Part shown: piece after piece, positions 2,936 through 24,792 of the stretch
How the letters are laid out: every line of letters begins with the position of its first letter
Position numbering within the stretch: position 1 is the stretch's first letter
Virus record (IMG/VR): IMGVR_UViG_3300025141_000501
Location: 1 to 30,282 of that record
Strand: one strand, 5' to 3'
DNA: 30,282 bases
Source: a virus
Translations under genes and position numbers: made by a program
Notes under the pieces: generated by a model
Databases searched by the model: none
Told to the model about the DNA's origin: nothing
What the model saw: the letters and a program-made list of their open reading frames with translations, nothing else

Positions 2936-4054
2936 TTAGTAGTCTAGGCGAACTCTAATAGTAAACTCTGTTGATGGATCCTTTTTCAGTGGCTCCGACA
3001 ACTTAGCGACTGCTAACAACTCATTATCCGGCGAATAGAGACCTACTGTGGTAACATAAGAAACGGGTGCGTCAGAAGAATTGTCTTTAACAACCATCTT
3101 ACTGGCACTTAAGTAGGTATTATTACTTGAATAGTTGAAGTCTGTGTTGTTAACGCGGCAGAAGTAAACTGTTGAGTTCAGCTCTGTAGAATTGTTGAAC
3201 GAAATATTGTCGACTCTGTGGCGCAGGTTGTCGCAGTTCCCCGAAATAGATGCACTAATAAAGTTGCCCACAACGCTCGCGCTAGCATGAACAGCAACTC
3301 CCTCTGTAGCGCTCATGCTAACCGAGGAGGACAATAAACTACCAAATACAGATGCCGAAATTACTGCGATACCGGCTTGATAATAGAGCAAGCCGACTTT
3401 AGCGTATCCACGGTCCCACTTAGCGTTGTATCCGCCTGCAGACTGGTCCCACACATCGCCAGAACCTGTTGCAAAAAGGATGCCGTATTCGCCGGCTGGT
3501 GAATTTACCTTATAACCAGCTGATCCGCTCTTATCTGTAATTGTAAGGGTTTGGGCAAAAGGAGAGCTATGTCCCGAAACTCCGGGGGCATTGACTCCTA
3601 GTGTAAGAGTAAAACTACCCTTCTTAATCTCATCCTTAGAAAGAAGACGCGTAAAGTTAATGAAGTAAGCTTCATCAATCTTGGTGCCGGATGTGAGGTC
3701 ACCATCTTCGTCAAATTGTCGGACGGCATTGTTGCTATCAAATCCAGCAAGCACTTGGGCCATCTCGTTATAGATGTTTATCTTTTTAGCCTGATTTGTC
3801 GTTGTACCATAAGAGCGAGAAAGCGACGAGGTAGCAGGATACCCACACGTAAGATCTAAGATATGGTTAGCAGACGAACTTAAATAGGGATAATCATATA
3901 CTGACTGAAATATCCCGTGACTATAATTCTTAATATTATTATCAGCATAGGTGCCCGACAAAATCGTACCAGTGAGGGGGATAGCCTCATGCAGGAGATT
4001 CCTGGTTACCACCGAGTCTTTTGCTGTGTCAAAAGTTTTGAATGAAGTTGCCAT
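2936..4054 (-). CDS. Virion-associated protein with the same C-terminal module as the 447-aa neighbour
   Basis: The protein (372 aa) is Ser/Thr/Asn/Gly-rich with no visible transmembrane segment. Its C-terminal ~100 residues form a module shared with the next gene: a segment with FNNSTELNSTVYF, then TVGLYSPDNELLAVAKL, a proline-lysine turn (EPLKK) and a final strand ending RVRLDY. From memory, this 'T.[GV]LY...LLAVAKL..P..K' signature recurs in uncharacterised structural proteins of large T4-like marine phages; that is unverified. The start ATG at 4054 has a good ribosome site (AAAGGA about 8 nt upstream). The gap from the 307-aa gene is 15 nt. The protein probably belongs to the tail tip, baseplate rim or fibre set, but no specific function can be assigned. 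Confidence 0.75.
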   Translation of the reverse strand: MATSFKTFDTAKDSVVTRNLLHEAIPLTGTILSGTYADNNIKNYSHGIFQSVYDYPYLSSSANHILDLTCGYPATSSLSRSYGTTTNQAKKINIYNEMAQVLAGFDSNNAVRQFDEDGDLTSGTKIDEAYFINFTRLLSKDEIKKGSFTLTLGVNAPGVSGHSSPFAQTLTITDKSGSAGYKVNSPAGEYGILFATGSGDVWDQSAGGYNAKWDRGYAKVGLLYYQAGIAVISASVFGSLLSSSVSMSATEGVAVHASASVVGNFISASISGNCDNLRHRVDNISFNNSTELNSTVYFCRVNNTDFNYSSNNTYLSASKMVVKDNSSDAPVSYVTTVGLYSPDNELLAVAKLSEPLKKDPSTEFTIRVRLDY

Positions 4055-7956: not shown

Positions 7957-10641
7957 TTAGTATCCTGCTCCTCGGGTGATATTCCTTCGTCGCGTTCCTG
8001 GACCACGTGTCCTTGTTGCGCGAGTTGCAGCGGGTGCAGATTCCCTCAGCGCTTCTTCGGTCGGGAACGGAATATTCTTTGCATATAGAATATCAGGTGA
8101 ATTCAAATAATTTAAACTATTATTAGATTTACTAAAAGCTCCGACCATTTTTTGATATAGAGCAGTATATGTGCCCACAGCACGGTTTCGGCGGACGGGA
8201 CCTAAAACAAAAACCGAAGCTAAGGGTTGAAGATGCAAAACGGTAGGCGCGTCAACAGTGTTGGAAACCTTTACCAATCGACAAATTAAAGCCTCCTTGT
8301 TCTCTAGTGCTCTATTATAAGTCTGTTGATTTAGGAGGGTCCAGTTTTGGTGCTTCACTCCAATAAGGGGATTATATGCGGCTAAGTATTGTACCTGCAC
8401 GAGGGAACCAAAATTTACTATATTTGTCATCGAATCGGAATGCTTCAGAAGTAACGAGTCCTCCTGTGTTTTTCGAAGTGCCAGTGAGCCTCTGATAGCT
8501 GATGGGTTCGTTATCCTGGTAATATTATTGAACTTTGTAACGGTCTGACTTACTAATTCGCTGACGAGCAGTGATTGCACAGACCTATCCTCAAGTTGTG
8601 ACGATTTTATTATACTATCCGAGGATCCTGACACTCTAGCATCCGCGGCGGTCTCTGCAATGACAAAATTAGAAGTTGATGAAAAGTAATTTTCAGAATC
8701 CACAGCTAGCGGATTTACTATATTATTATCAAAAACAACTTTTCTTAAGCTTGAATTATTTTGAGCGATGGCGATTCCAGACTGGTTCAAGATTTCCCTC
8801 ATATTGGTCCCAGATGTCTTCTTGGTTTCTAAACTTGTGGCTGGATTTTCGTCCTTTTTACTGCGTATGAGAGCAACAAAATTGCCCGTACTGTTATCCA
8901 GGCTCGTCGTAGAAACCGCGAGTGGGTTTGCTCTTAAGCTCACCGATCTCGGGGTCAAGAATCCTACCTTGTTTATCGAACCGGCGTTTGGATTGGTTAC
9001 AGAATACTTCTTCACCTCTTCGTCTACCCGGGCAGTCATTTTAGCATAACTAATAACAGGCATAGCCCCTCGCGGGTTGCTTATAATGTCATCCACATAA
9101 TCAAGTCCCACGCTTTTATAATCTGTCACACTATATTTTTGGGGGAAGGTTTTAACCAATCTTAAGCCACTATCTTTTTTAACATTATAAATTTTAGAAT
9201 TAAAATCCGCTCCATCACCTGTGATATTTTTCGTTGGCGAAAGTATGGCTTTAAGACTAGCTGCAAAGCTTTGTATCATCGTTAACACCCGCTGGCGGCG
9301 ATCGTTGTCCTCTGGCGTTACTCCCGACATTAGACTAAGAAAATATTTCTGCCACGCGTTGGAGGATATTCTGGCAAATGCGGCTGAGCCCAAAATGAAG
9401 CCTATAGAAGCAAGATAAGTATCTATTAGTTGTTTAGCGGGGCGGATGGAGAGCTTGCTGGGTCTCCTCTCATAACGTGCCAGTTGATCTCTCAACTTCT
9501 TTGCTACTAGCAGAAGAGCTTCCTTTGTTTGATCATCAAAGATAACTTCTACTTTGTATTCCAAGAGATTGCTGCTATATTCTTTTGCCGTCCTGTCAAC
9601 AAACGAAATATTTAATATACTGGACTGGTTGCCCCGATTTATTATTCTAAGTCCCCTCTTTAGGGAGGCGACTCTCCGAAATAAGTTTTCTTGCTTGATC
9701 CCCGCCGGGGCGAAGTAGCCGGGGGTTAAATCGTTGCCGGCATCGTCAACCTTCACAACTTTCTGATATACGATAATATCTTTTATCCCGGTGGCGGACA
9801 AAAGGGAAGAATTTGCTTTGATTAAGAATCCAAAATCTGCATTCTCCTGAGCGAAACTTAAATGATCAAGAGAGAAGAGCCCGTGGACGTTTCCTGCTTT
9901 ATTCCTGGAGAACGTCGCCGCAGATAGATATGCATTCTTGGGAACTCTTTTGGGACGGGAAGAAAGAGAGAACCTTTCCGCAAGCTTTAAAATTCGCATG
10001 TCTTTTGTTTTAGCATTTAGGGTTGATTCGGAGGACAAATTAGGATGGGTTGCTTCTGTGTGGATGTTGCCTGCCATAATTACTTCTCCATTGCTATGTG
10101 CCGAGCCCGGCCAGACTGCGCCCTTGACGCCATATCCCGCAGCCGTTTGCGATAAAGTATAGAGAGTAGAATTGGTGGGGGAGAAGCCCTTAAGAAGAAT
10201 TGTTTCCTTTACAATATTGCCAATAACATATTGCCCTTTGTTCTTCCTATAGGAAGCCACCAACGCATATAAAGTTTTAACACTTTTTCCAAAGCGCCTA
10301 GTTTCCTCATAAACATTATGATAAAGCGACGCATTTGTTGGAATAGCAAGCTTGGCTTTGGGAACAAAATCTTGTGGAAAAAGATGTAAATTCTTTGTAT
10401 TCGATGTATTTGCCTTAATGTGCTCTATTAAACGATCCGGGTCTAAGGATAGGGTATCAATCAGACCTTTTCTAGACGTTAAAAATATATAATTTGAAAA
10501 ATTTACCCTAGATTTCACGCGTCCTACCTCATTTGAGATAGATAAGGTTACCAAGACGTGATTCTCGGTATCCACATCAATCTTTATTTGTTGGATAGTG
10601 GCGAAAGGCATGCTTCGTCGATATGGTCCGGCAGCAATCAT
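7957..10641 (-). CDS. Large virion protein of unknown function with a basic Thr/Arg C-terminus
   Basis: The protein (894 aa) is Ser/Asn/Lys-rich with no recognised domain, signal peptide or clear membrane segment. The first ~60 residues (starting at PFATIQQIKIDVD) look beta-stranded. The last ~25 residues are strongly basic and Thr/Arg/Gly-rich (ATRATRTRGPGTRRR), similar in composition to the tail of the 3163-aa protein two genes upstream. ATG 10641 overlaps the preceding stop as TAATG, with a GAGGAG site about 11 nt upstream. A second Met at residue 11 has a poorer ribosome site. The gene lies between the two paralogous ~308-aa genes and directly before the 974-aa gene, so it probably belongs to the same tail or baseplate assembly. 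I cannot assign a function. Confidence 0.72.
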   Translation of the reverse strand: MIAAGPYRRSMPFATIQQIKIDVDTENHVLVTLSISNEVGRVKSRVNFSNYIFLTSRKGLIDTLSLDPDRLIEHIKANTSNTKNLHLFPQDFVPKAKLAIPTNASLYHNVYEETRRFGKSVKTLYALVASYRKNKGQYVIGNIVKETILLKGFSPTNSTLYTLSQTAAGYGVKGAVWPGSAHSNGEVIMAGNIHTEATHPNLSSESTLNAKTKDMRILKLAERFSLSSRPKRVPKNAYLSAATFSRNKAGNVHGLFSLDHLSFAQENADFGFLIKANSSLLSATGIKDIIVYQKVVKVDDAGNDLTPGYFAPAGIKQENLFRRVASLKRGLRIINRGNQSSILNISFVDRTAKEYSSNLLEYKVEVIFDDQTKEALLLVAKKLRDQLARYERRPSKLSIRPAKQLIDTYLASIGFILGSAAFARISSNAWQKYFLSLMSGVTPEDNDRRQRVLTMIQSFAASLKAILSPTKNITGDGADFNSKIYNVKKDSGLRLVKTFPQKYSVTDYKSVGLDYVDDIISNPRGAMPVISYAKMTARVDEEVKKYSVTNPNAGSINKVGFLTPRSVSLRANPLAVSTTSLDNSTGNFVALIRSKKDENPATSLETKKTSGTNMREILNQSGIAIAQNNSSLRKVVFDNNIVNPLAVDSENYFSSTSNFVIAETAADARVSGSSDSIIKSSQLEDRSVQSLLVSELVSQTVTKFNNITRITNPSAIRGSLALRKTQEDSLLLKHSDSMTNIVNFGSLVQVQYLAAYNPLIGVKHQNWTLLNQQTYNRALENKEALICRLVKVSNTVDAPTVLHLQPLASVFVLGPVRRNRAVGTYTALYQKMVGAFSKSNNSLNYLNSPDILYAKNIPFPTEEALRESAPAATRATRTRGPGTRRRNITRGAGY
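7963..7966 (-). promoter_or_regulatory. Ribosome-binding site that decides the start of the 974-aa protein
   Basis: AGGA on the minus strand ends 7 nt before the ATG at 7955-7953. The TAA of the preceding gene lies between them (TAAAATG arrangement). This makes the ATG more likely than the GTG at 8006, which has no comparable site. Confidence 0.7.
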
Positions 10642-11567
10642 TAGTCACACGGCTCCTCGTTATCGGTAAGGTAAAGATTTCTATTGAATCGAAGCTTCGT
10701 AGGTCCTGCGGACGGACGGGCGCCGAAATCAAGGTCGCCCACAGCGCGGTCGATCTCGCCATCCACCAATATATTCATATAATATTCTACATGCGATGAT
10801 GTTGGTTCAGTAAACTCTGGTCCCGACGTAGGGAAGAAAGATTTTTGTGTATATTCTCCCACTCCATTTGCTCCTGATCCTGATTCAAATACCTCGATAC
10901 TAAAATTTTCTTTTTCATAGTTGGTATTATTCTCTAGCAACTCTAACAGTAAATAGTTATCGTTTAGTGCCAAATACACATTTGTGTCTTCATAAAGCCC
11001 TGTTATCGATTTTTCCATATTCAACCGGTCACCAAAAAATACTTCATAATCAACATTAATGTTAATTTGAGGAATCTGCTCCACCAGGGCGCGTCCTGAG
11101 CCGCCTTCCTGTAAATAGCGAGCAGATGAAGATATTTCTGGCTCTGATAGCACCTCCAGCTGCCATGCCGGATTATATTTGGAGTCTATAGACGAATTCC
11201 CGAGAGGGTAAGCATTAATCTTTCCTTTGTTGGCGAAGGGCTCTTGGTTTCTGAACTGGGTTACTTTATTAGCCGGATCGAGCTGCCGTCCTGCATTGGT
11301 TAAGTTTAAATCAGCAAGGAACTGACCAACTCTAGTTTCTACCCCAGTTCTGTTTGCAAGAATCTTCAACTGAGGCGTGTCGTACTGGATTCGGCGCTCG
11401 ATATCATTTTGTGCTTCCGTATAGCCCGAGCCGCTCACATCGTACAGTACATCGTCATCAAAAAAAGCATAGTAAGCAGGATCAAGCTGACCAATTGATA
11501 AGAGATATTTACCGTACTCAGTAAGCTCAACATCAAGTACTTCTTCTTTTTTGTTAAAAAATTCCAT
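10641..11567 (-). CDS. Virion protein, paralog of the 307-aa protein at 4070-4993
   Basis: The protein (308 aa) has the N-terminal pattern shared with the 307-aa protein: M.F..N, a VLDVELTEYGKYLLS helix-like segment, AFFDDDVLYD, and then DTPQLKILANR. The shared block covers roughly the first 85 residues, after which the two diverge. The C-terminal half is acidic, Asn/Glu-rich and contains SHVEYYMNILVDGEID and LRFNRNLYLTDNEEPCD. The start is very well supported: ATG 11567 overlaps the upstream stop (TAATG) and is preceded by a full AGGAGG at 9-nt spacing. Its position directly behind the giant LamG protein suggests it connects or caps that protein, or attaches it to the baseplate. This is inference from order and from the tail-collar-like N-terminus. 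Confidence 0.78.
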   Translation of the reverse strand: MEFFNKKEEVLDVELTEYGKYLLSIGQLDPAYYAFFDDDVLYDVSGSGYTEAQNDIERRIQYDTPQLKILANRTGVETRVGQFLADLNLTNAGRQLDPANKVTQFRNQEPFANKGKINAYPLGNSSIDSKYNPAWQLEVLSEPEISSSARYLQEGGSGRALVEQIPQININVDYEVFFGDRLNMEKSITGLYEDTNVYLALNDNYLLLELLENNTNYEKENFSIEVFESGSGANGVGEYTQKSFFPTSGPEFTEPTSSHVEYYMNILVDGEIDRAVGDLDFGARPSAGPTKLRFNRNLYLTDNEEPCD

Positions 11568-14500
11568 TAGTTATTGCCTCCTCTGTTTCGGGTTGTTGTT
11601 GATCTAGTGGCGCGCTGAGTCGTTGTTGTTGATCTAGTGGCGCGCTGAGTCGTAGCTATCCCCTCCGAGGGCGCTGGCTGTGCCTGTGGCGCGCCGGGTG
11701 CCGCAGGAGCCTGTCTAGACGCCACAGGCGCCGTCTGAGCGCCTCTAGAGGTCACTGGGGCTCCAGGTGTAGATGGCGCGGTAGCTGTCGATCCTACGGG
11801 CGATCTGGACGCGTTAGTGGTGCGCTGGACATCCAGGGCTTCTTCTTCGCTCATGCGCGTGTTCTGTTTAAGGTCAGTTGACACATACTGAACTTGCTCA
11901 TTGATCTTAGCTAGCTCCACCAGGGAGAAATAGTCATATGGCCAGTTATATGAATAAGGACTTGTTATAGCATTGGGCATCGCGCTAAGGTCAGCATCTG
12001 GGAGAAGGGACCGGCGGACCTTCTCAAAGTCTTTCTTAGCACGCTTTTTAACCTTGAATACCATCCAGTGCGTATCTTTGTCCTTATTAAGAATGAGATC
12101 AACAAGCTGTTTCTCTTCTACGATCGCCTCTTTAGTCTCGAATTTCTCATTTATGTTGGGCGGCAGGTTCTGCCATATATCAGCTATATCCTGTTGAGTT
12201 AGGTCTGCAGAAAATTCAAAGATATACATTAACACGGGGTCAACAGTTCGGAATCTGGTGAAGTCAAATTTAGGTGGGAATATATATTTGTCCATTGCCT
12301 CTACCATGTTGCGATAAGTATTTGAATTCCTTCTATTTTGTGCTACGCGGATGAAATTTCTTCGATTTTTAGATTGACGATATGGTATTGCAACTATAGC
12401 TTCTTCAAGTTTAAATGCTGATTTAACAGTACCGACGCGTTTGGATTCAGCAGTAAATTTTACAACATCCAAAAGGGAGTTAGATCCTTCGGATGCCAAG
12501 GATGTAAAGACGCCGGCTTTAGATCCTGTCGGGATAGAACCATATTGCATCCACATGCCTCTGTTAATCAGCCGATTAGGGGGGTCCTCGGTACCGTAAA
12601 CCGACGCCGTTGGTGGAACAGCATAATTGGCGCTAGCAAAATTTAAAACTGGTGTCTCAAATTTAGACTGAATAAGCCAGCGCCTCTTTTGCGTGGTGGT
12701 GCCGGGGGGCACTTCCACTAAAGATTCTAATAAATTATAGCAATCATTTATCATCATGCGAGGATCATAGGTCGCGTCGTCGGCTACGGCGTACTCATTG
12801 TCATTGTATTCATCACGGGTGTAGTACAGATTCGTTCCCGATAGAATCTGATCTAGAGTAGGTATCCCATTCAGTGATGCCGTAAATGCTAAGAGAACTG
12901 ACCCGGCGCCTGCGTAATAGGGAGGCGTTACATGTGAGAAGGAGGGAACATTTGTCCCACCTCCAACCTTGCCATTCAATGGAGTTCCAAATCCTGTGAT
13001 TCGGGAATACATATCAAATGAACCCGTATCAGCCTCGCGGGCAGTGCTACTCTTCTTTTTAATTGGGCGGCTGATATCTAGACGCATTGTGTACACCGTT
13101 CCGGCAGTCACCGGAGTAAAATCCTCTTCTCTAGCGGAGGTAAACGAGGTTAGGTCCTCAACAAACATATTGGTTACTTCACAGAGGAAATTATCAATTG
13201 CAAGGCTATAAAGAGGTATCGATGTGCGCAAGTTGCCGGCAATATATGGCACGTTTGTGATGGGTGCCGGGTTGGAAAGCCAACTTGTGGTGCCAGAAAT
13301 ACCCGTATCTACAATATAGCCCCAAGTTGCTCTAATGCCAGTATAACTTCGGAAAGATCCATGTCGTCCGGACAGATTAATTAAATTCTCGTTTGTAAAG
13401 AAAGATTTCGGCTTATAGAGAGCCTCGAAAGGAACCTTTGCGGTACTAAATCCCTCAAAAGTATCGTTGGCTGAACTTGAACCAATGTCGAGGATCCGGC
13501 CTGCTGACCATCGAACGACGCCCTCTGGGAGTATGGTAGTTGAGGGGGATAAGCTTGTTATTGGCGACGGCGCGGCGCCAATAACCGAATAGGAACCCGT
13601 GTTTAGCAACACAAAGTTACTTACCCCCAAGCCTGATTTAACCGTATTATACAAAATTCCTGGGGAAAAGAGCGGTTCGATCAGGGCACGGTGAGCTTGA
13701 TCAGACACGGCGGTGCCGAGGTGCATGTTGAGATCATCCGCACCGGAGAGGTAGGAAGCCGAAAATAAGCTGACTAATTCTAGTGTTCTCTCCGCGGGGT
13801 AGAATCCCTTGTACGGTAAAAATTTAATTGATGCGGAGCACTTCAAAGCAACTTTGTCGCGGATAATCTTAAGATCACCGGAGCGCTGTTCATTCAAGTC
13901 CTCGTCAATTACATTAAAATATTTTAAGAAATCTGCATTTGTATAAGTCTTAAAGAAGCCAGCTTCTGAGCTGTCCGCAATTGCGGCGCCTGTTAGCTCA
14001 AATATGTTATCTATTTCAGCCAAGAAATTACTTTCTTTAGAGTTCACATATGTATCCATCAAAGTGCTGATTCGGAATTCTGGCACTATGGAATAGTCTT
14101 TTCCAACTAAGCGAATTTTCTCAGCATATGTAGAATAATTTTCATAAGGCTGTTTGCCGGCTTGATCGCCTGCTTGCCATTTCGCGCCGCCGAAGATGAC
14201 GGGGTATGCGCTTCCCGTATGTCCTGCTATAATCGGCATCCCATATGTTGGGGCACTTGTAATGCCGGATCCCAAGGAATTCGAGAAACGGGAATATGAA
14301 TTCATCAGTTCTCCGGCGCCGTCTGCAGTACGAACAGAGGAGGTAGTGGTGAAGTTAAGATGTCCGTCCAATGGCCAAATACTTGAATCCGAGACCGGCG
14401 CCTTCTCCATGGAGCCTACCAGACCGCCGTAGGTTGTGCTTCGCTTCGTTCTATTGTTATTCCAAATATTATTTATGGTATAATTCTGTCTACCGCGAAC

Positions 14501-17500
14501 TGCTGGTTTATAAGCATTCTTTGCGGAGGGATAAAGTCTCTCAGAATAATTTATCACCACACTCAAGGGGCTCAGGAGCGTATAGTCGATAACCGAATTG
14601 TAAGCACGGCGGCTATCAAGATCGATTTGTAAGCCAAGTCTATTATTGAGACCATTATTTGAGAAGTAATCTAACTCATTTCTAAATGGAACCGTAAGAA
14701 CTAAATTATTAGCAGTGTTAGAATCATCAGTATTATCCTCAAAATAGAAATATATTGGAGAGGAATTATTAGAAAGAGGCGCCTCAAAATAATCAATAAA
14801 GGTGTTTGGCTGGGTTGGGGTTATATATCCTGTTTGAACGCCCCCCACTATATCTGGAATCGGCTTCGGGGCTATAACTGTTCCTATCTGATTAGTTTCT
14901 CTAAGTTTTCTTACTACAGGCTTCTCTCCTTGCCGGATTTGTTTCCAGGTGGAATACCCAAAGGCGCCCCCACGGTTATCCAGCAGCACATTAAGATAAT
15001 CAGCCGTGTTAGTTAGAGTTGCTCCCTTCAAACCAAGAGTTGAGTTATAATAAACGGTGGCTGCTGGTGAGGTCAACGGGAACCCCAGGATATGGGCGGA
15101 TGCCGACACAGGATCCAGGACTAGCGAACGAAGTCCTACAAAGTTAGAGTGACCATAAGTGCCGCTAGTGACTAGCTCCGATAAGGTCGATGCACTGCAG
15201 CACGAGGGGCGCTGAAGATCTAAGATCATGGAGCCGCTCTTAAGGGACCCCGTTACCCAAGTGTACTGCTGAGTAGATTGTGGTATAGCATGTTGCACAA
15301 ATAGGTTGTCATATACTGAACTGGTGACGTACGTATCACCACTGAGGACTACGCGCCTCTTGGTGTTTCGGTTTGTCTTGTGCCATGCCGGGAACTGGTC
15401 GATGGTGGCATAAGTACCATATGCCGGATCGACTCCAAATTGTCCACAGTGAAGAGTAGCTAGTTGATTCAAGCCGCGCGGCTTATCGATTTGGTCGACA
15501 ACACGCATAGCAGTATTTAGGACATTATCAATTGACGCAGACCCGGACATACCGTAGCTGATTACGTCGCGATTCCGATATGGCGAAGCGTTATATGCAG
15601 ACAACTCTTCATGTGCAGGATCTAAATACCCGCGCGAGAGTGTTCTGTATGAACCGGGCGAGCTAAACAGGTTCACTATTACAGTTTTGTTTGAATTAGC
15701 GCCGCTGCGATTTGGAAGGGAAAAGTTGTGTCGGACTAAATCTCCGAAAGGCGACCTGGGGGCAGTAGCACGGAAGCAAACCTCGGTCGGTATATCAATT
15801 AGAGTGGGAGAGCCTCCTTGCGCAACTAGATTTGCATTTCCCATCTGGTCTACAATAATGTCGGCAGTGTCCGTAGCTCCATTGCCACAGCGCCACCATA
15901 TAAGTAGATTTGCTGCAGCGCTTAGAGGTCCATAGGTTGCCAAATTTAGAGTAGAATTGCCGTAAATCTGTCTGATTTCGTTGGAGTTAAGGTTTGTATT
16001 ATAGAATGCAATGTCCGACAAATATCCCTCGAAACCGACAGACGAGTGGTATCCGATTCGGATCTTAGCGTCATACTCTTCCAACTTGCCGGTGGGAGTT
16101 GCGGTTTGACTTATCTTTACCCTGGTACCATTAACATATATTTCTGGGTGATTGGAAGTAGAAGAGCCGTCATAGGAGATTGCAATGTGGATCCACTCAT
16201 CCGTCGCAACAGGGTCGTCTGTTTTCCAGTTCCCGTCGTTGCCGTCAAAGTAGGCGTGGAAGATGAGACGATCAGTAGAATCCAAATACGCATATCTATC
16301 ATCAGCAACCGCGCCAACAAGGAAATAGTTGTCCTGTCCCGAATTAGTGCAATTCATCCAGAAAAGCCATGTTTCCTTGTCATTAGTGTTCATCGCGCTG
16401 AAAGAATCAAACTCATAGTAGTTACCAGAATCGTCTATGGTAGCGGCCTTATTGTTAACCGCGCGGACATCTAACAAGCGACTATAAGGAAGCTGAGGAT
16501 TAAGGGCAAATTGATAAGATTGATCCTGGAAGAACGGATCGTTGGTAGTCCTACCGCCTGTATTAATAACTTGGTAGTTCTTCTGATAGTTGCCGATCGC
16601 ATTGTGGTCCAGAGTGCCGGAGAGGCGCGTGCCCACAGACGCCGTAGTCATCAGAATGTTCCTAATATTGACCGGGCGCTTGGCTGTCTCGTCCCGGAAG
16701 CGTTGTGCGGTCGGAAGACTTGCCAGCCACCCCAAGGGAGCCGAGCCTGGTGGGGAATCGCCAAACGGATAGTTGGGGGGCACTATCCCCAGCGTTCCTG
16801 TCAGCGGCAACGTGAGGGATCCTAATTCAACCCTAAACCCTTCGGCGCGGCTTTCTCGCGTGTCTGTGCCATCATTAACTTCGGTATGTCGATAGTAGCG
16901 TCCGCCGACAAACTTCTCCGGGAAGGGACCCTGCATCGGAATATCATGATTCTGAACAAAGTCATTATGGAGGTTAGTTATCATTGATCCTGACTTATAC
17001 TTCTTGACAACATTAGAGTTATAGCCAGTAGTGACTGAGGAACTATAGAGGCTGAATGGCGCATAAACGTTGCCATCAAGGTCTCTCTCTTGATCAATAT
17101 TGATGCTGGGGTCTAGCGCGAAACCCAATCGTTGTTTAAGTGTCGGGAAGAAGATATCCGTGGTGTCAACTAGTTGTTCCACGTCGGAGCCTACGCCGAG
17201 CATAATATTTGTTGGAATATTGGTACTCGGGACAACCGGTCCATAAGGAGCGCATGCGGCGAATACATAATTAGGACGATTATTATGATGTCGTCCGACG
17301 CCGCCAAAAGAGATGCCGCCTTCTATCGACATTCGGACCGGGGATGAAACTCTGCGCGTGTATGTCTGCGCAATAGCTAACCCGGAGGATGTAAGATCTA
17401 CAGAAACAGCCTTGAATGTTTCTTGCTGTCCGGCATATCGATGCCAATACGTGTTCTCAGTCTGCGGCGGAGTGCCGAGGGGCGTCGAAGCTACCGGCGC

Positions 17501-20500
17501 ATGGAAGAATTTCCAAGCCTTAGAATATGGCGGATTAGAACTACCAATCTGCCGGCGTGTAAACGTAGAGTTCGATGATATACCAAGACCGGAAGGAAAA
17601 TCGTCCGGGGAGTTGTTCTCACTTGATTCTCCTACCGTGTCTACCGTTACAATTGCTGTCTCGTTGCCGCCAATTCTCTGCAGGAAGGGGAATTTTCTTC
17701 GATATTTTGGACGCTCCAGGAGATGATTTTCAACAACAGTTAGCACACTCTCAGCAGCATCAGCAGATGCCGGCACAAGCTGAGAGAGAAGAACTGATAG
17801 CGCCGAGTCAAACCATTTGTAGAATTCGTAATATTTATCAAAATCAAGTTCGGGATTCTTAACTTTCTCAAAGAATTTTCGGCGCATGACGTTTAATTGC
17901 TTATATTCGAGGCGATATTTTTCTACAGGATCTCCAAGAAGGTTGTGAAGATCTTTTAGATTAGCAAAATAATTTAGCATTTCTTCTGAGATTGTTTGAT
18001 ACATGCTCTTTTCAAATGCAAAATAGTGATGGAGCGGTCTAGAATCGGCTGTGAATACCTCTGTGTCGGCAGTGCCCTTGACAGTAACCATATCTTCGGC
18101 GTGTATGTTTTCCGGCAGGTTTAGGCGCGACGAAACTATAAAATCTTTGTCTATAGCAGACGTGGAGGATGCGGCAAAGAAAGATCCACTAGCGGTATAC
18201 TGGTTGTTTAAGATATTCCCTAAATTGCCGAACCTAGTAAAGTCGGCGGAGCCTGAGCTAATATCTGCGACGGCGAATTGCCCGTTAGCATCTGAGCCCG
18301 TATTGGTTAGGAACTCCCAATTGAACACCAGAGTATCAAACTTAGTGATATCTCCGAAAGAAGCCGACGGATTAAATTCATAAGCATACAAGTGAGGCTG
18401 AAGTGCCCCGTAATTTTCAGTGTCTAGAGCATGGGCGCTGAGGGTTTCGTTATCTAGATAATCTAGCCAATACCGGCAGGCATTAATTTTTACATCCGAT
18501 TGCTGCAATACAGCACCGGTAAAGTTTGTTCGGTGTGCACCAATGTATGCGCGGCGACTGCCCGTCATAAAGCCAGCACGAGGAGCCGTAACAGATTGAG
18601 ATATCGTAAATTCTGTCAATACCTCACCAGCATCAACCTCGACACCATGTAACTCAACAATATAGTTACTATTCGAGCTAGTAACCAATCCCTTAAGGGG
18701 ATATGTCTCGGGCTTAATCCTTACAGCAAGGTTCCATTTTGTATCATTATAGACTTGCTGATAGAGGCTCGAGGTCAATCTTGTTATGCGTCCGCCCGCT
18801 GAGCTAGTCAGAACAAACTTCACATTGTCCGAGCTAAGTTCGTCGCGCTCCGCATAAACCTGGAAGTTCAGAGTGTCAGGCGTTCCCCAAATCGCATCGG
18901 AAGCGAGCAGGCTGGCGCTGTGCATTCCGAACAGAGATGCACTTATAGTATTCGTGTTAACATAACCGCGATCTGTCGGACGCAATTTAAGAGGGAATAC
19001 AACTTCTGTCTCTAAAGTGAGAGCATAACCGCCTGTTAAGTGCGCGGATGCAGGTATAACACCCACTGAATTGGCATTTGTCGGATCGGCGTAGTTATAG
19101 ACCGTGGCATCGGTGTTGGACTTCGCATTAAAGTTTACGAACTTATCAGCGACGGCTACATTGCGTCTGTTGGATCTTAGTTCATATTGAACGTTATCCG
19201 CATAAGTATTAAATTTGATCAGCTCATCATCAATTCCAAAACAGCGAATGAGGTTTCTAAATGACTTCTGGGTGCCCTTTGTCTTGTAAATGTAAGATAG
19301 GTTGTTATAAATGTTCTGATATATAGTGTTTTTTATATCATGAAGAGATTTTTCGTAGACTTTATCTTCACTTCGATCAGCGAGCTTCTCCAATATGTCA
19401 GCATCCAGGAACAGATCCGGGGCGACGAGTCCGCGAGAAGCCAAGAGATTTTCAGCAAATGGAAGAGGCTTTGTGGTGCCTGTCACATATTGTCTATCTT
19501 GAAGTTTGTTGAGACTTTTAATCTGTAGGTGCAAAGTGTCAAAGTAGCTTGACATAATCTGAGTTAAATATCTTAGCTGCTTTTGACCTTCAATATCCTC
19601 TTCTACAATCCAAGTTGGGATGGAGTTATAGATGGAGGCATTGTTCATCGTGTCATGATCAGAGCCCGACAGCTTGAGGGCGCTGTTGAGAGCTACTACA
19701 GCTGGGTGGAATGAATAGATTATGGGATCTTGGAATTCTTTGATTGCCGCACTTGAGGATATGATGGCGGATCCCGTATTCCGCGAGTTCGAGCCGTAGC
19801 CTGTCCAAGCACCATTAGAGAACCGACCAGAGTAATCGAGGACGACGCTATCCGTCGCTGTGACCCCCGTTATGCCTTCGTTAAACTTAAAGTAGACACC
19901 CAAGTCTACATTGCCCGACTCCATCGTCTCAATGAACGGCTCTGGGTCTGTGTTAACACCTCCCCCAACTTGCGTGAACCAGTACCTCCCAATGTCTTTA
20001 GAGGTTCTTTGGGTCTTCCAATAGCGGAACTCATCCAAGGAGCCGGAGAGCTTTCCGAAGCCGGCGCCTGTCGTGGAGGGAGTGGTGGTGCCCGAAACAG
20101 CGGTAATTAGAGCGCCCACATATGCGCGCAAGGACGTACTGTCCATATCGTTAATGCCGGTGGACCCCAGAATGCTTTCTTTGTTGAGTGTTCCATCAAC
20201 ATAAAATTTAGTAGTAACGCCAGCAGAAGCAGACTTAAGAGTTACCGCGTAGTGGTGCCAGTTGCCATCGGCTACAGATGCACTAGTAATGGTTGACGTC
20301 GCAATAGCTTGGCGATAGAATCCTGCAGTCCCGGACATGGCGGTGAGCAAAAAGGGGTCGGCGCCGTCCGAAAGATTTCCTGTTAACTCAAGACGCAGGC
20401 GGCTGTAGTCTGCGGAGGAGGAGTTCTCTCCGTTCCATAAATCGAAAACAACTTCTCGTGGAGACAGCGACGGCGATAAAAAGGTATCCTTTTTCAACCA

Positions 20501-21058
20501 GAACTCAACAGAAGCGCCTTGCGATGCTAAATTGAACTCCAGGTTGGAGCCACGATTCATTGACGGCTCGTAATAGTTAGAGCCAGTAAACTGGGTGGAT
20601 CTCGGAGTCGCCGTATCAGGATGAGGGTTGGGACCGCCTTCCATATAAATGTATTCGGGGGATGACGAGGATCCGTAGCCGTCTGCTATGTTGCCGGTGC
20701 CCCAACCATCGGCGGACATAATGATATAACCAGTTGTCCTGGGATATTCGTGATCGTATATGTGAAGATCTAAATATGTAGAATCATTGACCCACTCTAG
20801 ACGTTCTTTGAGAGACCCATCATACGGATAGGTATTATAAATTCGTTTTATAGATTGTTCGTAGTATTCTTCGGCCGAGCCGTAGCGAGCGAAATTTTCC
20901 GGCTTGGAAAAGTCGATACGAGGTATGAATCTCTCTTCCTCGATGATATCTTGCGCGTGATATCCAACAGACTCAACCTCGGATCCTATGTCGGCGGCTG
21001 ACTTGTTTGCGAGAGACTGTATGTTTTCGGCAACTTCGAAATACTTCTTAATGCTCAT
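11567..21058 (-). CDS. Giant 3163-aa virion protein with three LamG/concanavalin-like modules
   Basis: This is the largest gene in the window, one uninterrupted frame of 9.5 kb. Three segments look like LamG/ConA-like jelly-rolls. The first (about residues 140-360) has GASVEFWLKKD, GNWHHYAVTL, KFYVDGTL and GSLDEFRYWK. The second (about 675-880) has TKWNLAVRIK and RRAYIGAHR. The third (about 1540-1740) has DEWIHIAISYDG, EIYVNGTRV and GYLSDIAFYN. Such folds usually bind glycans. Around residues 583-623 the pattern YKTKGTQKSFRNLIRCFGID recalls P2-type tail protein I (KGT...LL..G). A dense block near residues 1370-1390 (DIPMQGPFPEKFVGG) and another near 2920-3060 (LMYIFEFSADL, DIADIWQNLPPN) look strongly conserved; I recall similar ones in giant proteins of marine phages, unverified. 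The extreme C-terminus is Pro/Ala/Gln-rich, then Thr/Arg-rich with a 10-aa tandem repeat. The ATG at 21058 has only a weak ribosome site. Likely a peripheral baseplate or adhesion protein; exact role unknown. Confidence 0.85.
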   Translation of the reverse strand: MSIKKYFEVAENIQSLANKSAADIGSEVESVGYHAQDIIEEERFIPRIDFSKPENFARYGSAEEYYEQSIKRIYNTYPYDGSLKERLEWVNDSTYLDLHIYDHEYPRTTGYIIMSADGWGTGNIADGYGSSSSPEYIYMEGGPNPHPDTATPRSTQFTGSNYYEPSMNRGSNLEFNLASQGASVEFWLKKDTFLSPSLSPREVVFDLWNGENSSSADYSRLRLELTGNLSDGADPFLLTAMSGTAGFYRQAIATSTITSASVADGNWHHYAVTLKSASAGVTTKFYVDGTLNKESILGSTGINDMDSTSLRAYVGALITAVSGTTTPSTTGAGFGKLSGSLDEFRYWKTQRTSKDIGRYWFTQVGGGVNTDPEPFIETMESGNVDLGVYFKFNEGITGVTATDSVVLDYSGRFSNGAWTGYGSNSRNTGSAIISSSAAIKEFQDPIIYSFHPAVVALNSALKLSGSDHDTMNNASIYNSIPTWIVEEDIEGQKQLRYLTQIMSSYFDTLHLQIKSLNKLQDRQYVTGTTKPLPFAENLLASRGLVAPDLFLDADILEKLADRSEDKVYEKSLHDIKNTIYQNIYNNLSYIYKTKGTQKSFRNLIRCFGIDDELIKFNTYADNVQYELRSNRRNVAVADKFVNFNAKSNTDATVYNYADPTNANSVGVIPASAHLTGGYALTLETEVVFPLKLRPTDRGYVNTNTISASLFGMHSASLLASDAIWGTPDTLNFQVYAERDELSSDNVKFVLTSSAGGRITRLTSSLYQQVYNDTKWNLAVRIKPETYPLKGLVTSSNSNYIVELHGVEVDAGEVLTEFTISQSVTAPRAGFMTGSRRAYIGAHRTNFTGAVLQQSDVKINACRYWLDYLDNETLSAHALDTENYGALQPHLYAYEFNPSASFGDITKFDTLVFNWEFLTNTGSDANGQFAVADISSGSADFTRFGNLGNILNNQYTASGSFFAASSTSAIDKDFIVSSRLNLPENIHAEDMVTVKGTADTEVFTADSRPLHHYFAFEKSMYQTISEEMLNYFANLKDLHNLLGDPVEKYRLEYKQLNVMRRKFFEKVKNPELDFDKYYEFYKWFDSALSVLLSQLVPASADAAESVLTVVENHLLERPKYRRKFPFLQRIGGNETAIVTVDTVGESSENNSPDDFPSGLGISSNSTFTRRQIGSSNPPYSKAWKFFHAPVASTPLGTPPQTENTYWHRYAGQQETFKAVSVDLTSSGLAIAQTYTRRVSSPVRMSIEGGISFGGVGRHHNNRPNYVFAACAPYGPVVPSTNIPTNIMLGVGSDVEQLVDTTDIFFPTLKQRLGFALDPSINIDQERDLDGNVYAPFSLYSSSVTTGYNSNVVKKYKSGSMITNLHNDFVQNHDIPMQGPFPEKFVGGRYYRHTEVNDGTDTRESRAEGFRVELGSLTLPLTGTLGIVPPNYPFGDSPPGSAPLGWLASLPTAQRFRDETAKRPVNIRNILMTTASVGTRLSGTLDHNAIGNYQKNYQVINTGGRTTNDPFFQDQSYQFALNPQLPYSRLLDVRAVNNKAATIDDSGNYYEFDSFSAMNTNDKETWLFWMNCTNSGQDNYFLVGAVADDRYAYLDSTDRLIFHAYFDGNDGNWKTDDPVATDEWIHIAISYDGSSTSNHPEIYVNGTRVKISQTATPTGKLEEYDAKIRIGYHSSVGFEGYLSDIAFYNTNLNSNEIRQIYGNSTLNLATYGPLSAAANLLIWWRCGNGATDTADIIVDQMGNANLVAQGGSPTLIDIPTEVCFRATAPRSPFGDLVRHNFSLPNRSGANSNKTVIVNLFSSPGSYRTLSRGYLDPAHEELSAYNASPYRNRDVISYGMSGSASIDNVLNTAMRVVDQIDKPRGLNQLATLHCGQFGVDPAYGTYATIDQFPAWHKTNRNTKRRVVLSGDTYVTSSVYDNLFVQHAIPQSTQQYTWVTGSLKSGSMILDLQRPSCCSASTLSELVTSGTYGHSNFVGLRSLVLDPVSASAHILGFPLTSPAATVYYNSTLGLKGATLTNTADYLNVLLDNRGGAFGYSTWKQIRQGEKPVVRKLRETNQIGTVIAPKPIPDIVGGVQTGYITPTQPNTFIDYFEAPLSNNSSPIYFYFEDNTDDSNTANNLVLTVPFRNELDYFSNNGLNNRLGLQIDLDSRRAYNSVIDYTLLSPLSVVINYSERLYPSAKNAYKPAVRGRQNYTINNIWNNNRTKRSTTYGGLVGSMEKAPVSDSSIWPLDGHLNFTTTSSVRTADGAGELMNSYSRFSNSLGSGITSAPTYGMPIIAGHTGSAYPVIFGGAKWQAGDQAGKQPYENYSTYAEKIRLVGKDYSIVPEFRISTLMDTYVNSKESNFLAEIDNIFELTGAAIADSSEAGFFKTYTNADFLKYFNVIDEDLNEQRSGDLKIIRDKVALKCSASIKFLPYKGFYPAERTLELVSLFSASYLSGADDLNMHLGTAVSDQAHRALIEPLFSPGILYNTVKSGLGVSNFVLLNTGSYSVIGAAPSPITSLSPSTTILPEGVVRWSAGRILDIGSSSANDTFEGFSTAKVPFEALYKPKSFFTNENLINLSGRHGSFRSYTGIRATWGYIVDTGISGTTSWLSNPAPITNVPYIAGNLRTSIPLYSLAIDNFLCEVTNMFVEDLTSFTSAREEDFTPVTAGTVYTMRLDISRPIKKKSSTAREADTGSFDMYSRITGFGTPLNGKVGGGTNVPSFSHVTPPYYAGAGSVLLAFTASLNGIPTLDQILSGTNLYYTRDEYNDNEYAVADDATYDPRMMINDCYNLLESLVEVPPGTTTQKRRWLIQSKFETPVLNFASANYAVPPTASVYGTEDPPNRLINRGMWMQYGSIPTGSKAGVFTSLASEGSNSLLDVVKFTAESKRVGTVKSAFKLEEAIVAIPYRQSKNRRNFIRVAQNRRNSNTYRNMVEAMDKYIFPPKFDFTRFRTVDPVLMYIFEFSADLTQQDIADIWQNLPPNINEKFETKEAIVEEKQLVDLILNKDKDTHWMVFKVKKRAKKDFEKVRRSLLPDADLSAMPNAITSPYSYNWPYDYFSLVELAKINEQVQYVSTDLKQNTRMSEEEALDVQRTTNASRSPVGSTATAPSTPGAPVTSRGAQTAPVASRQAPAAPGAPQAQPAPSEGIATTQRATRSTTTTQRATRSTTTRNRGGNN
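11577..11582 (-). promoter_or_regulatory. Strong ribosome-binding site of the 308-aa gene inside the end of the giant gene
   Basis: A full AGGAGG on the minus strand, 9 nt before ATG 11567, is embedded in the codons for the final Arg-Gly-Gly of the 3163-aa protein. The stop and start overlap as TAATG. This is the best Shine-Dalgarno match I see at any gene start in the window, so the small protein may be made in excess of the giant one. Confidence 0.7.
11591..11650 (-). repeat. 30-bp tandem repeat, two copies, in the 3' end of the giant gene
   Basis: Two adjacent 30-bp units (11591-11620 and 11621-11650) are identical except for their first base. In the coding frame they give two consecutive copies of the decapeptide TQRATRSTTT. 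The unit is a multiple of three, so copy-number change would keep the frame. It lies in the basic, low-complexity tail of the 3163-aa protein, a common place for slippage-generated repeats. Confidence 0.9.
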
Positions 21059-21065
21059 ACTTTAA

Positions 21066-22589
21066 TTATTCTTCAACTCTAAATTTGAACGTCTGTGGTT
21101 GTTCTTGCCAATCTCCTATACTATCGTTATAATATGACAACTTAATTTCGTACATATATCCTGGGTCGAGTAAGTTTATATTTAGATCAAAATAGTTGCC
21201 ATCCTTATCATATGAGAGGTATGTACTCAAGTCTGAACCTGTTCCGTATGGAATGGCTATGTAATTATCTATTACCCGACAAATAGAGTACGAAGCGCTC
21301 GTGATAATGTCTGTTGGATTATTAGCCGTCGCAACAGTATAAATTGTTGGGCTCCAATCTTTGTCTCGGACAAAGAAACGGAAACGTGCTTTATCACTTG
21401 TAACATAGCTCTTTTTCAAATTCCTACAAGAAGTTATCCTATTAAAGGTTGGAGCACTATCATATGTGGGTACCAACTCAGGATAAAAAGAACCTGTGTA
21501 GAATTCGGTGCCACCAGAATGCCAAACATCGTGAACAGCTAAAAATCGAGTTGCCGCTGCGGTAAGTGCAAGTTGACAAGAATAGAGACCCGTGCTAGAG
21601 TAACTTGCTGTGGCGTTAAGATCATCATCAGCGACAACCCCGCCGCCTAGAGGGAGCTTGATCTTCGAGCCAGATGGAGAGCCATTGGAACTAGAGTAAA
21701 AAGATACTAAGAGGTCGTCGGTACCCACTGACGGGATATTAACTAAACGCCCCCGCACATAATTATAGAGGATGAGCTTATTGAGATTATCGGCGGCTGG
21801 TGCTAGTGAGCTCGAATAATAAAAATTTTCTCTGTCGTCCTCGGTCCTTGAGTTCCAGCGCGCTTCGATCACCGGGCGCTTGAAGAAAAATTCTGTTGAG
21901 CGAGCAAAAAACTTCTTAGTGTAGTAAGACTGTGATGCGCCTTGCGTATTCTGGATTACACTTCCCGAATCTACTCCGCTAGAATTAGAAAAGTAGGCTT
22001 CCTGACTAGCTGTCAGGCGGACTCCGAAACCATAATTTGTAAACTCATTGCCGGAGGTTATCCATCGTTCAACAATCTCTGACACATCAAGATTGATGTT
22101 TTCATACCCCGCGGGAAATAATACATTATAATTTGAAGCTGTCAGATAATCGCCACCGACGCTTGTCCAAGCTGTTGTAGAACTGGCAGATCCCCAATTG
22201 GCTACTCCCAAATCCTGATAATTGTCCATATCGAGACCTGTTCCCTCCGTCCAGGTTCGGGAAACCGGAGCGATTATTAAATTAAAATCTTGCGGTAGCG
22301 TAAAAGGCGTTTCGGCATTGAACATCTTCAAATAAAAAGATACGCTGCCAGAGGCCGGGATTGTGCCGGCGTCTCGGTCGGCTGAAACGGTGTCTATAGG
22401 AAACTTAACGAGAATACGCGACAGTTCCTGCGACTGTCCGGTCGAGCCGGACTCCTGCCCATATATGGAGAATACCTCAAGAGAATCCGCGTAGCCCATG
22501 TTGGACCCACTGCCCCGCGTCCTCAAATTTGCTTCGTAAGCATTCGTGATGGTGGTGTCAGCACTCGCCGTATATCTTACTATGGCCAT
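21066..22589 (-). CDS. Tail protein with an N-terminal DNRLRE/CBM96-like domain
   Basis: The protein is 507 aa. The first ~240 residues fit the DNRLRE (CBM96-like) beta-sandwich: an opening 'ADTTITNAY', a 'SRILVKFPID' strand, 'SVSFYLKMF', the 'SRTWTEGTGLD' motif with 'VANWGSAS', then 'NLDVSEIVERWITSG' and a closing 'RPVIEARW'. In bacteria this domain binds carbohydrate or occurs in surface proteins. The C-terminal half has a second conserved-looking block (KKSYVTSDKARFRFFVRD, then SYDKDGNYFDLNINLL) and ends in the strand TFKFRVEE. ATG 22589 overlaps the preceding stop as TAATG, with AAAGGA 11 nt upstream. Its place directly behind the gp6-like gene and before the giant LamG gene suggests a baseplate-attached surface protein. 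The domain call is by pattern, without a profile search. Confidence 0.75.
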   Translation of the reverse strand: MAIVRYTASADTTITNAYEANLRTRGSGSNMGYADSLEVFSIYGQESGSTGQSQELSRILVKFPIDTVSADRDAGTIPASGSVSFYLKMFNAETPFTLPQDFNLIIAPVSRTWTEGTGLDMDNYQDLGVANWGSASSTTAWTSVGGDYLTASNYNVLFPAGYENINLDVSEIVERWITSGNEFTNYGFGVRLTASQEAYFSNSSGVDSGSVIQNTQGASQSYYTKKFFARSTEFFFKRPVIEARWNSRTEDDRENFYYSSSLAPAADNLNKLILYNYVRGRLVNIPSVGTDDLLVSFYSSSNGSPSGSKIKLPLGGGVVADDDLNATASYSSTGLYSCQLALTAAATRFLAVHDVWHSGGTEFYTGSFYPELVPTYDSAPTFNRITSCRNLKKSYVTSDKARFRFFVRDKDWSPTIYTVATANNPTDIITSASYSICRVIDNYIAIPYGTGSDLSTYLSYDKDGNYFDLNINLLDPGYMYEIKLSYYNDSIGDWQEQPQTFKFRVEE

Positions 22590-24382
22590 TATCTTACAGA
22601 TCCTTTAATGTTGACATTTGGGAACTTTAGTTCAAATACAACATTCTTTTCTCCGACAACCTTTTTGCTGTCTGCAGCTAAATTGCCTTCAAAATCAAAA
22701 CTAGTATCGGAGTAATTCCCTCCTGAGATCCCATCGACCTCTAGTCCCTCTACATCTACTACGCCTTCGGTTTTCTGCAATACTTTATAGAACTCGGTTA
22801 GCACAATAGATTCTCCGATATCATATTGGTGTGTAGAAAGATATTTTCTTAGTGCGGCAGAAGCTCTATTCACGACAGTATACTTACTCGTATTGAGGTC
22901 TGCAACAACAGTAAATTTGATTTCAAAATTAGCAATTTTTGCATCTAGTATGTCGACTGTGTCATTAATCATCTTATATTGACTTATCCAAGTTCTTAAG
23001 TTATTTTTAAGTGTAATATTGGCAGGCGTTAGTTTACCGCTCGTGTCTTCGGAAACCACATAGAGATTCAAATTTCGTTTAAGAGCGCCGAAGTCTTTAA
23101 TTAAGGCTGCTCTTTTTACGGCGCCATATCTCGCGGGCATCGCATAGGCTAAAGATTGATAATCTTGTGCTGTTACGGCGCGATTTTGAGTCGCATAAAA
23201 CCCCATAACACGCTGTTTAATTTCATCTGTCGACGGCAGAGAGACATCACCTACAAAGCTTTCTTCGTTGATAACCTCCAGGGTACCCTGCACTGCGTTG
23301 CGGGTCACCTGTGAGAGAGTTCCTTGCGATCTAAACCGGAAGAGAGGTCGCTGCAAATTTACGATTGTATTCACCCCAGCATTAACATCGCTAGTGGTAT
23401 TTACTCTATAGGATATTCTCAACGTAGTGTCTGCCGGTGCGATCCCGAATTTATCAGTGCTGATTAGCTTTGTGGGGTCGAAATCAATATCAGTAATGTA
23501 ATCGCGACCGTTTAAGTCCAACACTAAAGCTGATGGGTCTGTCACCGAGTCGCTAAGAAGCTCAGAATCAGAGCCATATCCAAACTGTAAATAAGTGCGG
23601 TCACGCTCCCTTTCAACAGTGAATCTTCGTGCTACTGGGACAGCTTTCATAATGTTTCTAACTGTGTTATTGGTTGCGGTATTGGTATTGCGGATGGCTT
23701 TATAAATAGTATTCTGGGATAGGTTGTCAACCTCAACATACTCGTGACCTTCTGAATCTGTAACTGATAGTACTTCAGCTACATTCACCGCCCCCAGATC
23801 AAGTTTCAAAAATCTTTGAAAGTCTCCGACAGTAATTTCCTTGTAGGCGCCTCGCCCGGAGACAGCGCGTCCTTGCGCACGAATAACATAGTTTGTAGGA
23901 GACCCTGTGGTGGTATCTACGGTACCTACAACAATTTGGTTTGATGAGCGCGAGAAGTCAACATCTTCAATTAAGCTGTAGGAGCCCCCGCCAGTCGAGG
24001 CGAAGAGCGAGCCTGCTTGCAAGACCGGCGCATATTCAAGATCGGGTCCGGAGGTAGTACCAGGAACTTGGATATAGAATGTTAGCACCCCATAGGAAGA
24101 AGGGCTAGTGGTTAGCTTAAATCCCATTTGATTGGCAAGCCGCAGGACATTGTCATATTCAATCGCTGTATTTAAAAAGCTTTCATTCGCCTGATAATCA
24201 ACATAGAAGGAAAGAATGTCTCCGATATAAGCAACGGTGTCTAGCATCAAAGACCCAAAGGAGGCTTTATTAAAGTCCTTATAGGTATCTGAGTAATATC
24301 TTTTTGCGTAATTTTCTAAATCCTTCCGGATAGAATCAAAGTCGCGGCTTGTATATTTTATCGATTGTAATTTTTTGGACAT
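22589..24382 (-). CDS. Baseplate wedge protein, gp6 / baseplate-J-like
   Basis: The protein is 597 aa, close to T4 gp6 (660 aa). The N-terminus carries the typical opening YTSRDFDSIRKDLENYAKRY followed by FGSLMLDTVAYIGDILSFYVDYQANESFL, which is diagnostic of T4 gp6 and its relatives. The centre (about residues 388-425, FYATQNRAVTAQDYQSLAYAMP and RYGAVKRAAL) is the baseplate-J-like core. In T4, gp6 forms the inner ring of the baseplate and heterodimerises within the gp25-gp6-gp7 wedge; the ring holds the baseplate in its pre- and post-infection states. The gp25-like gene lies 12 nt upstream, which supports the assignment. The start ATG 24382 has only a weak GAGA site, so translation may be coupled to the preceding gene. 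Confidence 0.93.
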   Translation of the reverse strand: MSKKLQSIKYTSRDFDSIRKDLENYAKRYYSDTYKDFNKASFGSLMLDTVAYIGDILSFYVDYQANESFLNTAIEYDNVLRLANQMGFKLTTSPSSYGVLTFYIQVPGTTSGPDLEYAPVLQAGSLFASTGGGSYSLIEDVDFSRSSNQIVVGTVDTTTGSPTNYVIRAQGRAVSGRGAYKEITVGDFQRFLKLDLGAVNVAEVLSVTDSEGHEYVEVDNLSQNTIYKAIRNTNTATNNTVRNIMKAVPVARRFTVERERDRTYLQFGYGSDSELLSDSVTDPSALVLDLNGRDYITDIDFDPTKLISTDKFGIAPADTTLRISYRVNTTSDVNAGVNTIVNLQRPLFRFRSQGTLSQVTRNAVQGTLEVINEESFVGDVSLPSTDEIKQRVMGFYATQNRAVTAQDYQSLAYAMPARYGAVKRAALIKDFGALKRNLNLYVVSEDTSGKLTPANITLKNNLRTWISQYKMINDTVDILDAKIANFEIKFTVVADLNTSKYTVVNRASAALRKYLSTHQYDIGESIVLTEFYKVLQKTEGVVDVEGLEVDGISGGNYSDTSFDFEGNLAADSKKVVGEKNVVFELKFPNVNIKGSVR

Positions 24383-24394
24383 TAGTTTATCTCA

Positions 24395-24790
24395 TTAAAT
24401 AGGTTGATTCGCCTCTACGCTCAAAATTGCTCTGGTTTGAAGAGGAATGATTGTAAATTTAATCCTTACTTGGAGATCATTAGGAAATAATTCGGGCACT
24501 GAGGGCGTTGAAAATTCTACACCATCTATATTAATATACGAAAGATACCGCTTGGCTTGTCTCTGGATGCGGCTTCGCAATTCCCCATAGACTGTGGGTC
24601 CAGGGTTCTCAAATATAAATTGTCGTATGCCCACCCCAAAACTAGGGTCCATCATCCTTTCACCAGGATTTGTAAGAACGAGCATTTTGAGGTTTTGTAT
24701 TGCTAAATCAGCAAACGTTGTATTTAGGCGATAGGCACCAAAAATATCACTTTGGACCAGTGGTAGTGCGACTGCTAAACCTGAACTCAT
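24395..24790 (-). CDS. Baseplate wedge protein, gp25-like
   Basis: The protein is 131 aa from ATG 24790, nearly the length of T4 gp25 (132 aa). It contains the family signature LVLTNPGERMMDPSFGVGIRQFIFE, here at about residues 38-62, and a C-terminal beta segment (LQVRIKFTIIPL). gp25 is the lysozyme-like-fold wedge subunit that binds gp6 and contacts the sheath; homologs occur in T6SS (TssE) and most contractile tails. A GTG two codons upstream (24796) also opens the frame, but AAGGAG at 24798-24803 lies only 1 nt from that GTG and the ideal 7 nt from the ATG, so I chose the ATG. The stop of the preceding gene is just upstream. The GER motif and the gp6-like neighbour make this a confident call. 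Confidence 0.93.
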   Translation of the reverse strand: MSSGLAVALPLVQSDIFGAYRLNTTFADLAIQNLKMLVLTNPGERMMDPSFGVGIRQFIFENPGPTVYGELRSRIQRQAKRYLSYINIDGVEFSTPSVPELFPNDLQVRIKFTIIPLQTRAILSVEANQPI

Positions 24791-24792
24791 GC

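Follow-up and report, generated by a model that had tools for sequence, protein, structure and literature searches.

A viral DNA stretch of 30,282 base pairs (bp; the window, a single fragmentary virus record, IMG/VR IMGVR_UViG_3300025141_000501) encodes a giant LamG-bearing protein of 3163 amino acids (aa; P0001, 11567..21058) in its baseplate locus. All genes and features described here lie on the minus strand. By sequence comparison, LamG1 and the putative LamG2 are part of a scaffold conserved among relatives, and the third module, LamG3, is exchangeable and occupies one of many insertion sites. The gene stands in a gp25-gp6-gp7-type cluster with one extra gene between, and its product is probably part of the tail baseplate. 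The explanation favored here, held with moderate confidence, is that the giant serves a contractile-tail baseplate as its gp7-type (second) wedge subunit and has grown into a lectin-like display platform. This explanation starts from direct observations of homology, synteny, domain architecture, variation from site to site and one shared block of DNA.

A single ATG-started open reading frame (ORF) fills 11567..21058 exactly, as an earlier sequence-only reading of this DNA had proposed with no mention of the strand. The family was found in 79 IMG/VR loci, most with giants of 2700-4400 aa, and the relatives of the phage come mostly from marine samples. A chance ORF or an assembly fusion is ruled out by the 44 LamG-bearing ORFs longer than 2700 aa in independent loci.

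LamG domains of the scaffold and its inserts

LamG1 (aa 108-440; 19739..20737) is a scaffold domain with the motifs NWHH (aa 266), YVDG (286) and GSLDEFRYW (339). In the AlphaFold2 (AF2) model of the N-terminal part (predicted local distance difference test, pLDDT, 72.7), it folds as a LamG/pentraxin jelly roll, with VIA Z-scores of 17-20 over ~200-220 residues. The matches include PAPP-A (19.7), the Bacteroides ovatus carbohydrate-binding protein 4dqa (19.1), SAP (17.2) and CRP. Its single-sequence Pfam match (Laminin_G_2, 0.0034) lies under the cut-off, and its profile aligns with the inserted LamGs at an hhalign probability of 98 (E 7e-14). LamG3 (aa 1526-1775; 15734..16483; site S1515) carries EWIH (1621), YVNG (1641) and GYLSDIAFYN (1678) and matches Pfam Laminin_G_3 at E 2e-22, scoring 80.4 bits where the cut-off is 27.6, with the best stretch at aa 1543-1695; through it the giant passes the curated cut-off of that family.

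Between them, LamG2 (aa 631-920; 18299..19168; TKWN at aa 773) is a putative LamG domain on the strength of its predicted fold. The AF2 model places there a beta domain of 12-13 strands (aa ~631-864), and laminin LG4-5 pairs align in VIA over aa 109-918, thus over both LamG1 and LamG2. The domain is conserved in the family and in Microcystis phage Mel-JY01, where the hhalign alignment runs through it, and is absent in Flavobacterium phage immuto. Of the three LamG modules expected by the sequence-only reading, LamG1 (VIA Z ~19) and LamG3 are therefore firm and LamG2 stands as a predicted fold. The motifs lie where they had been placed (aa 266-339, 773 and 1621-1678), and the first segment is real, with a LamG1 larger than had been drawn. 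A lack of jelly rolls in two or more of the three segments was not found, given the LamG1 fold and the LamG3 Pfam match.

Across the family alignment, conservation is strong at aa 30-1125 and patchier up to aa 3050. The LamG3 region is almost missing from relatives, being present in a minority, and other relatives bear extra blocks of ~200 aa at other places. With an iterated LamG profile, LamG1 turns up in essentially every member whose sequence spans its region, along with 0-4 extra LamGs per protein at about nine scaffold positions. Inserts fall, in window numbering, at about aa 258, 277, 800, 1190, 1398, 1515, 1903, 1950, 2000 and 2070, those at ~258 and ~277 being nested inside LamG1. Among the 44 ORFs longer than 2700 aa, 31 have one profile hit, six have two and seven have 3-6, where the maximum of six counts one split LamG1 twice. 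Three insertion points could be located in the N-terminal model, after aa 231, 233 and 256, and all lie in predicted loops.

The two kinds of LamG also separate in the tree. LamG1 copies form one clade (100/100). The inserts make up a second set, and none of the sites with several members is monophyletic there; as far as the sequences tell, LamG1 is inherited vertically. On a backbone tree built from aa 430-1120, explaining the occupancy takes seven changes at S1515 (at least six of them forced by supported branches), five each at S1190 and S1900 and four at S2000. Along 459 nucleotides, the inserts of two relatives, L021 at site 1190 and L026 at site 1515, have 95% identity, including exact runs of 219 and 90 nucleotides, in loci that otherwise match at 64-73%. 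Because the edges of this block fall inside LamG, it looks like recombination between LamG copies and not transposition of a whole cassette. A search for further contigs with the block returned only these two, which come from different datasets, and no close DNA copy of the window's LamG3 was found elsewhere.

The main rival explanation regards the LamGs as structural or neutral decorations, like Ig-like domains, tolerated in surface loops and with no part in glycan binding or host range. Occupancy is indeed patchy, the nearest backbone relatives of the window (L002, L003 and L016) lack LamG3, the 31 single-hit giants carry the core LamG1 alone, and non-LamG inserts occupy the same or nearby sites; loop tolerance nevertheless leaves unexplained both the repeated use of LamG, a ligand-binding fold, and the conservation of LamG1 across members, and we consider pure decoration rather unlikely.

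Other features of the relatives were noted by eye. The giants of L043, L035, L068, L062 and L072 contain a recurrent non-LamG insert domain of ~120 aa ('TFTLTDADNVKTTYRV...GGPASKDKVAEAV') at several scaffold sites, and a member of 4.5 thousand residues (L063:9839-23344) has a repeat or beta-propeller-like block near site 2000 with a LamG beside it. Members also occur in bacterial and archaeal metagenome-assembled genomes (L083, which is CP070664.1, L084, L085 and L086; a WOR-3 'chromosome', Maricaulis and Poseidoniales). Since these are probably misbinned phage, they provide no host evidence.

The wedge-type core and its probable relation to gp7

The core of the scaffold consists of a helical, gp7/tail-protein-I-like part, core A (aa 441-640; 19139..19738; KGT motif at aa 594), and a second half, core B (aa 1005-1135; 17654..18046), both delimited by alignment with immuto, Mel-JY01 and the 484-kb phage LR756508. 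Each of these three phages encodes, one or two small genes after gp25/gp6, a protein of 1265-1400 aa whose homology with the giant extends over aa 441-1135. Against the Mel-JY01 homologue, aa 450-1121 align at an hhalign probability of 98 (E 2.6e-14), and the family profile, which itself includes three such sequences, finds the immuto-type core at E ~1e-49. Mel-JY01 and LR756508 have by alignment a LamG2 equivalent and no LamG1, and immuto has neither; from this distribution, these two domains, together with the 2000 aa at the C-terminal end, are additions to a common core.

The connection to gp7 runs through the core motif 'YxxKGTxxSF', which aligns with cyanophage giants in the gp7 slot at E 1.2e-5 (6.5e-5 with an enlarged profile); these align in turn with T4 gp7 through the same motif at E 3.6e-7. 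In a control for the direct comparisons with T4 gp7, the enlarged core aligned with LamG2 at E 4e-4 because the alignment extended beyond the core, so that the pairwise E-values of those comparisons are rough. One of 26 core members matches Tail_P2_I (PF09684), at E 0.03. A sequence search of the PDB with the core and C-terminal profiles gave no credible match, and the fold search of the N-terminal model, core included, returned lists filled by the LamG domain. The protein is called gp7-like and is not filed as a gp7 family member, because place and motif are what links it to gp7 and the direct alignment with T4 gp7 is non-significant. Its assignment to the baseplate in preference to a classical tail fibre, already suggested from the sequence alone, is backed by the gene order, the syntenic homologues in three lineages and the KGT motif.

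Several results weigh against the favored explanation. The bridge to gp7 is a single motif of 33 columns. Direct hhalign comparison with the T4 gp7 profile yields E 0.05-0.4 and stays non-significant when LamG2 is removed in silico; Pfam Baseplate_wedge PF23786 does not match the giant at E<=1. For LamG2, Pfam searches of family members gave no match, and the profile comparison (E 0.01) is not significant. Among annotated phages there are distant core matches only, with no full-length relative and no isolate that carries the full giant. An assembly chimera is a possible source of the block shared by L021 and L026, which was seen in two contigs only.

The T4 gp7 and PF23786 results would also suit a baseplate-periphery protein other than the gp7 equivalent (e.g. 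gp10- or gp8-like) that lies near gp6 by chance, and so would the gene that separates the giant from gp6, an arrangement unlike that of T4. In three other lineages, however, the corresponding slot is filled by a homologue, the KGT motif is shared with annotated cyanophage gp7, and no other ORF in the window matches a gp7 family, which makes a chance neighbor of gp6 an unlikely account of the giant.

The C-terminal half and the neighboring genes

The C-terminal unit (aa 1972-3063; 11870..15145) is a separate gene in four relatives (L029, L046, L033 and L049), in which the giant is divided into two genes near aa 1939/1972, with an ATGA overlap in L029 and L046. These split forms sit in two separate clades, and the splits mark domain boundaries. 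In L067 (10001-23173) the scaffold is divided near aa 1127/1333, and a 162-aa gene stands between the two pieces. A three-ORF form, L007, was left out of the gene splits, as it looks like a frame-shifted assembly.

The AF2 model of aa 2021-3063 (predicted template modeling score 0.85; pLDDT 80.6) is compact and mixed alpha/beta. Searched whole with Foldseek and VIA, the unit has no PDB match; the best values, E 0.026 and Z 5.2, belong to weak jelly-roll capsid-like matches that are taken as noise. A BFVD search with the model returned only predicted viral relatives, the named ones from an uncultured marine virus, and PHROG gave no match to the C-terminus. As the unit was modeled and searched as one piece, no claim of a new fold is made. 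Behind it, the family alignment shows a variable, low-complexity tail rich in Pro, Ser, Thr and Arg (11567..11869), which includes 2.1 perfect copies of a 30-bp tandem repeat (11592-11653) encoding a Thr/Arg-rich decapeptide.

LamG3-type domains are reported in jumbo-phage tail fibres and other virion proteins (PMC7824862), yet a classical tail-fibre or tail-spike adhesin is very improbable here, given a compact C-terminal model in place of a repetitive trimeric fibre, the position in the wedge cluster and an N-terminal half homologous to compact baseplate-locus proteins of 1265-1400 aa.

The minus-strand order leading to the giant is a 1188-aa gene, a 622-aa gene, the gp25-like gene, the gp6-like gene, a 507-aa gene and the giant itself. 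The gp25-like sheath initiator/wedge protein (133 aa; 24395..24796) matches Pfam GPW_gp25 (6e-8) and PHROG 261 (1e-14), and the gp6-like baseplate wedge protein (597 aa; 22589..24382) matches PHROG 219 and PHROG 10646 (2e-18 each) and shares ~30% identity over 99% with its counterparts in Mel-JY01, LR756508 and immuto. The giant had been described as lying directly behind the gp6-like gene and a DNRLRE-domain gene: it is in the same cluster as gp6, with the 507-aa gene (21066..22589) in between, and the DNRLRE label of this neighbor finds no backing, the protein having no match in Pfam (E<=1), PHROG or NCBIfam. Downstream, the order continues with genes of 308, 894, 991, 307, 372 and 447 aa, a RuvC-like resolvase and a DNA primase. 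The 308-aa gene (10641..11567) overlaps the giant by one base, and its product has no family match in Pfam, PHROG or NCBIfam. The 372-aa protein (2936-4054) has a weak Ig-domain match (Pfam 0.011).

Proposed role and known systems

In the gp7-type explanation, the N-terminal 1130 aa would contain the wedge core, split into one half at aa 441-640 and another at aa 1005-1135; LamG1 would stand ahead of this core and LamG2 would be lodged within it, both permanent. The ~2000 further residues, including the compact C-terminal unit, would lie at the baseplate periphery, and LamG3 would be an accessory cassette hosted by a scaffold loop or linker. Such cassettes would be gained, lost and recombined at many positions across relatives while the scaffold is kept. 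With one giant per wedge, six per baseplate, and the LamGs facing outward, several lectin-like modules on each wedge would give a ring of six a multivalent, low-affinity contact with host glycans, timed before or during the baseplate switch. A cassette swap would then retune host recognition and leave the wedge core untouched.

We infer that the giant belongs to the wedge, in how many copies it occurs, that it is exposed at the surface and that it binds glycans and plays a role in adsorption. The multi-point adhesion put forward from the sequence alone is plausible as a putative function, and gain, loss and swap of modules may be a way of retuning the grip on host cells. More tentatively, and with less confidence than the gp7-type assignment itself, a wedge scaffold could have become a many-port chassis that takes up and loses lectin cassettes and trades them between ports by recombination, so that host recognition diversifies in the baseplate core and not in swappable fibres. 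If the explanation is right, a wedge-core protein is where an abundant uncultured phage group keeps its adhesive diversity, and host switching could be predicted from metagenomes by reading which LamG inserts are present. Structural work could be aimed at the C-terminal unit, whose model is confident and has no solved relative, and the frequent annotation of gp7-slot giant genes as merely 'hypothetical' or 'structural protein' is a warning.

LamG3 in jumbo-phage virion proteins, domain shuffling in phages and annotated cyanophage giants in the gp7 slot are already known. A limited search of the open-access literature found no description of a wedge-type giant in which LamGs take many insertion positions, can be nested and are exchanged from one position to another. 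In jumbo phages, the LamG3/ConA-fold lectin domains have the same fold as those of the giant and are virion-associated, in tail fibres and other parts; the available part of that account describes no multi-site insertion in a wedge-type scaffold (PMC7824862). Domain mosaicism among phage proteins reflects recent shuffling in proteins that meet the host (PMC10684548); that study deals mainly with receptor-binding proteins, endolysins, neck passage structures and polymerases, and not with the giant's family.

The cyanophage gp7-slot giants (Syn1_094, 3274 aa; P-HM2 gp7, 4454 aa; S-SM2 gp7, 4156 aa) resemble the giant in their place in the gp25-gp6 cluster, their size and the KGT motif. Their KGT core is N-terminal, unlike that of the window giant, and no other similarity was found; the two that were scanned, Syn1 and P-HM2, have a YHYH domain (Pfam 7e-25 in L153:13807-23631 and 6e-27 in L161:9914-20665) and no Pfam LamG match. 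Weak PF23786 matches occur at aa 1820-1863 in Syn1 (the profile end) and 207-247 in P-HM2. With its KGT near aa 198, the Syn1 gp7 core looks as if interrupted by some 1600 residues.

Another known set consists of immuto gp161 (1265 aa), Mel-JY01 WWT39511 (1336 aa) and the 1400-aa ORF of LR756508, which have cores A and B and the same gene order as the giant and, by alignment, are without LamG1 and the 2000-aa extension. In a pelagimyophage study, gp7 was regarded as absent and replaced by VrlC (PMC7029224). T4 gp7 (1032 aa) and Vibrio phage XM1 gp17 (242 aa) are second wedge subunits of contractile baseplates, encoded beside gp6, T4 gp7 having a KGI/KGT motif; compared with the giant, both are far smaller, show no significant sequence match and have no reported LamG. 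Both form a (gp6)2-gp7 wedge, and flexible parts of the 242-residue XM1 gp17 bind the tail spikes (PMC10457771). Because XM1 gp17 is small and binds tail spikes, there is a precedent for wedge proteins of variable size that bear the periphery.

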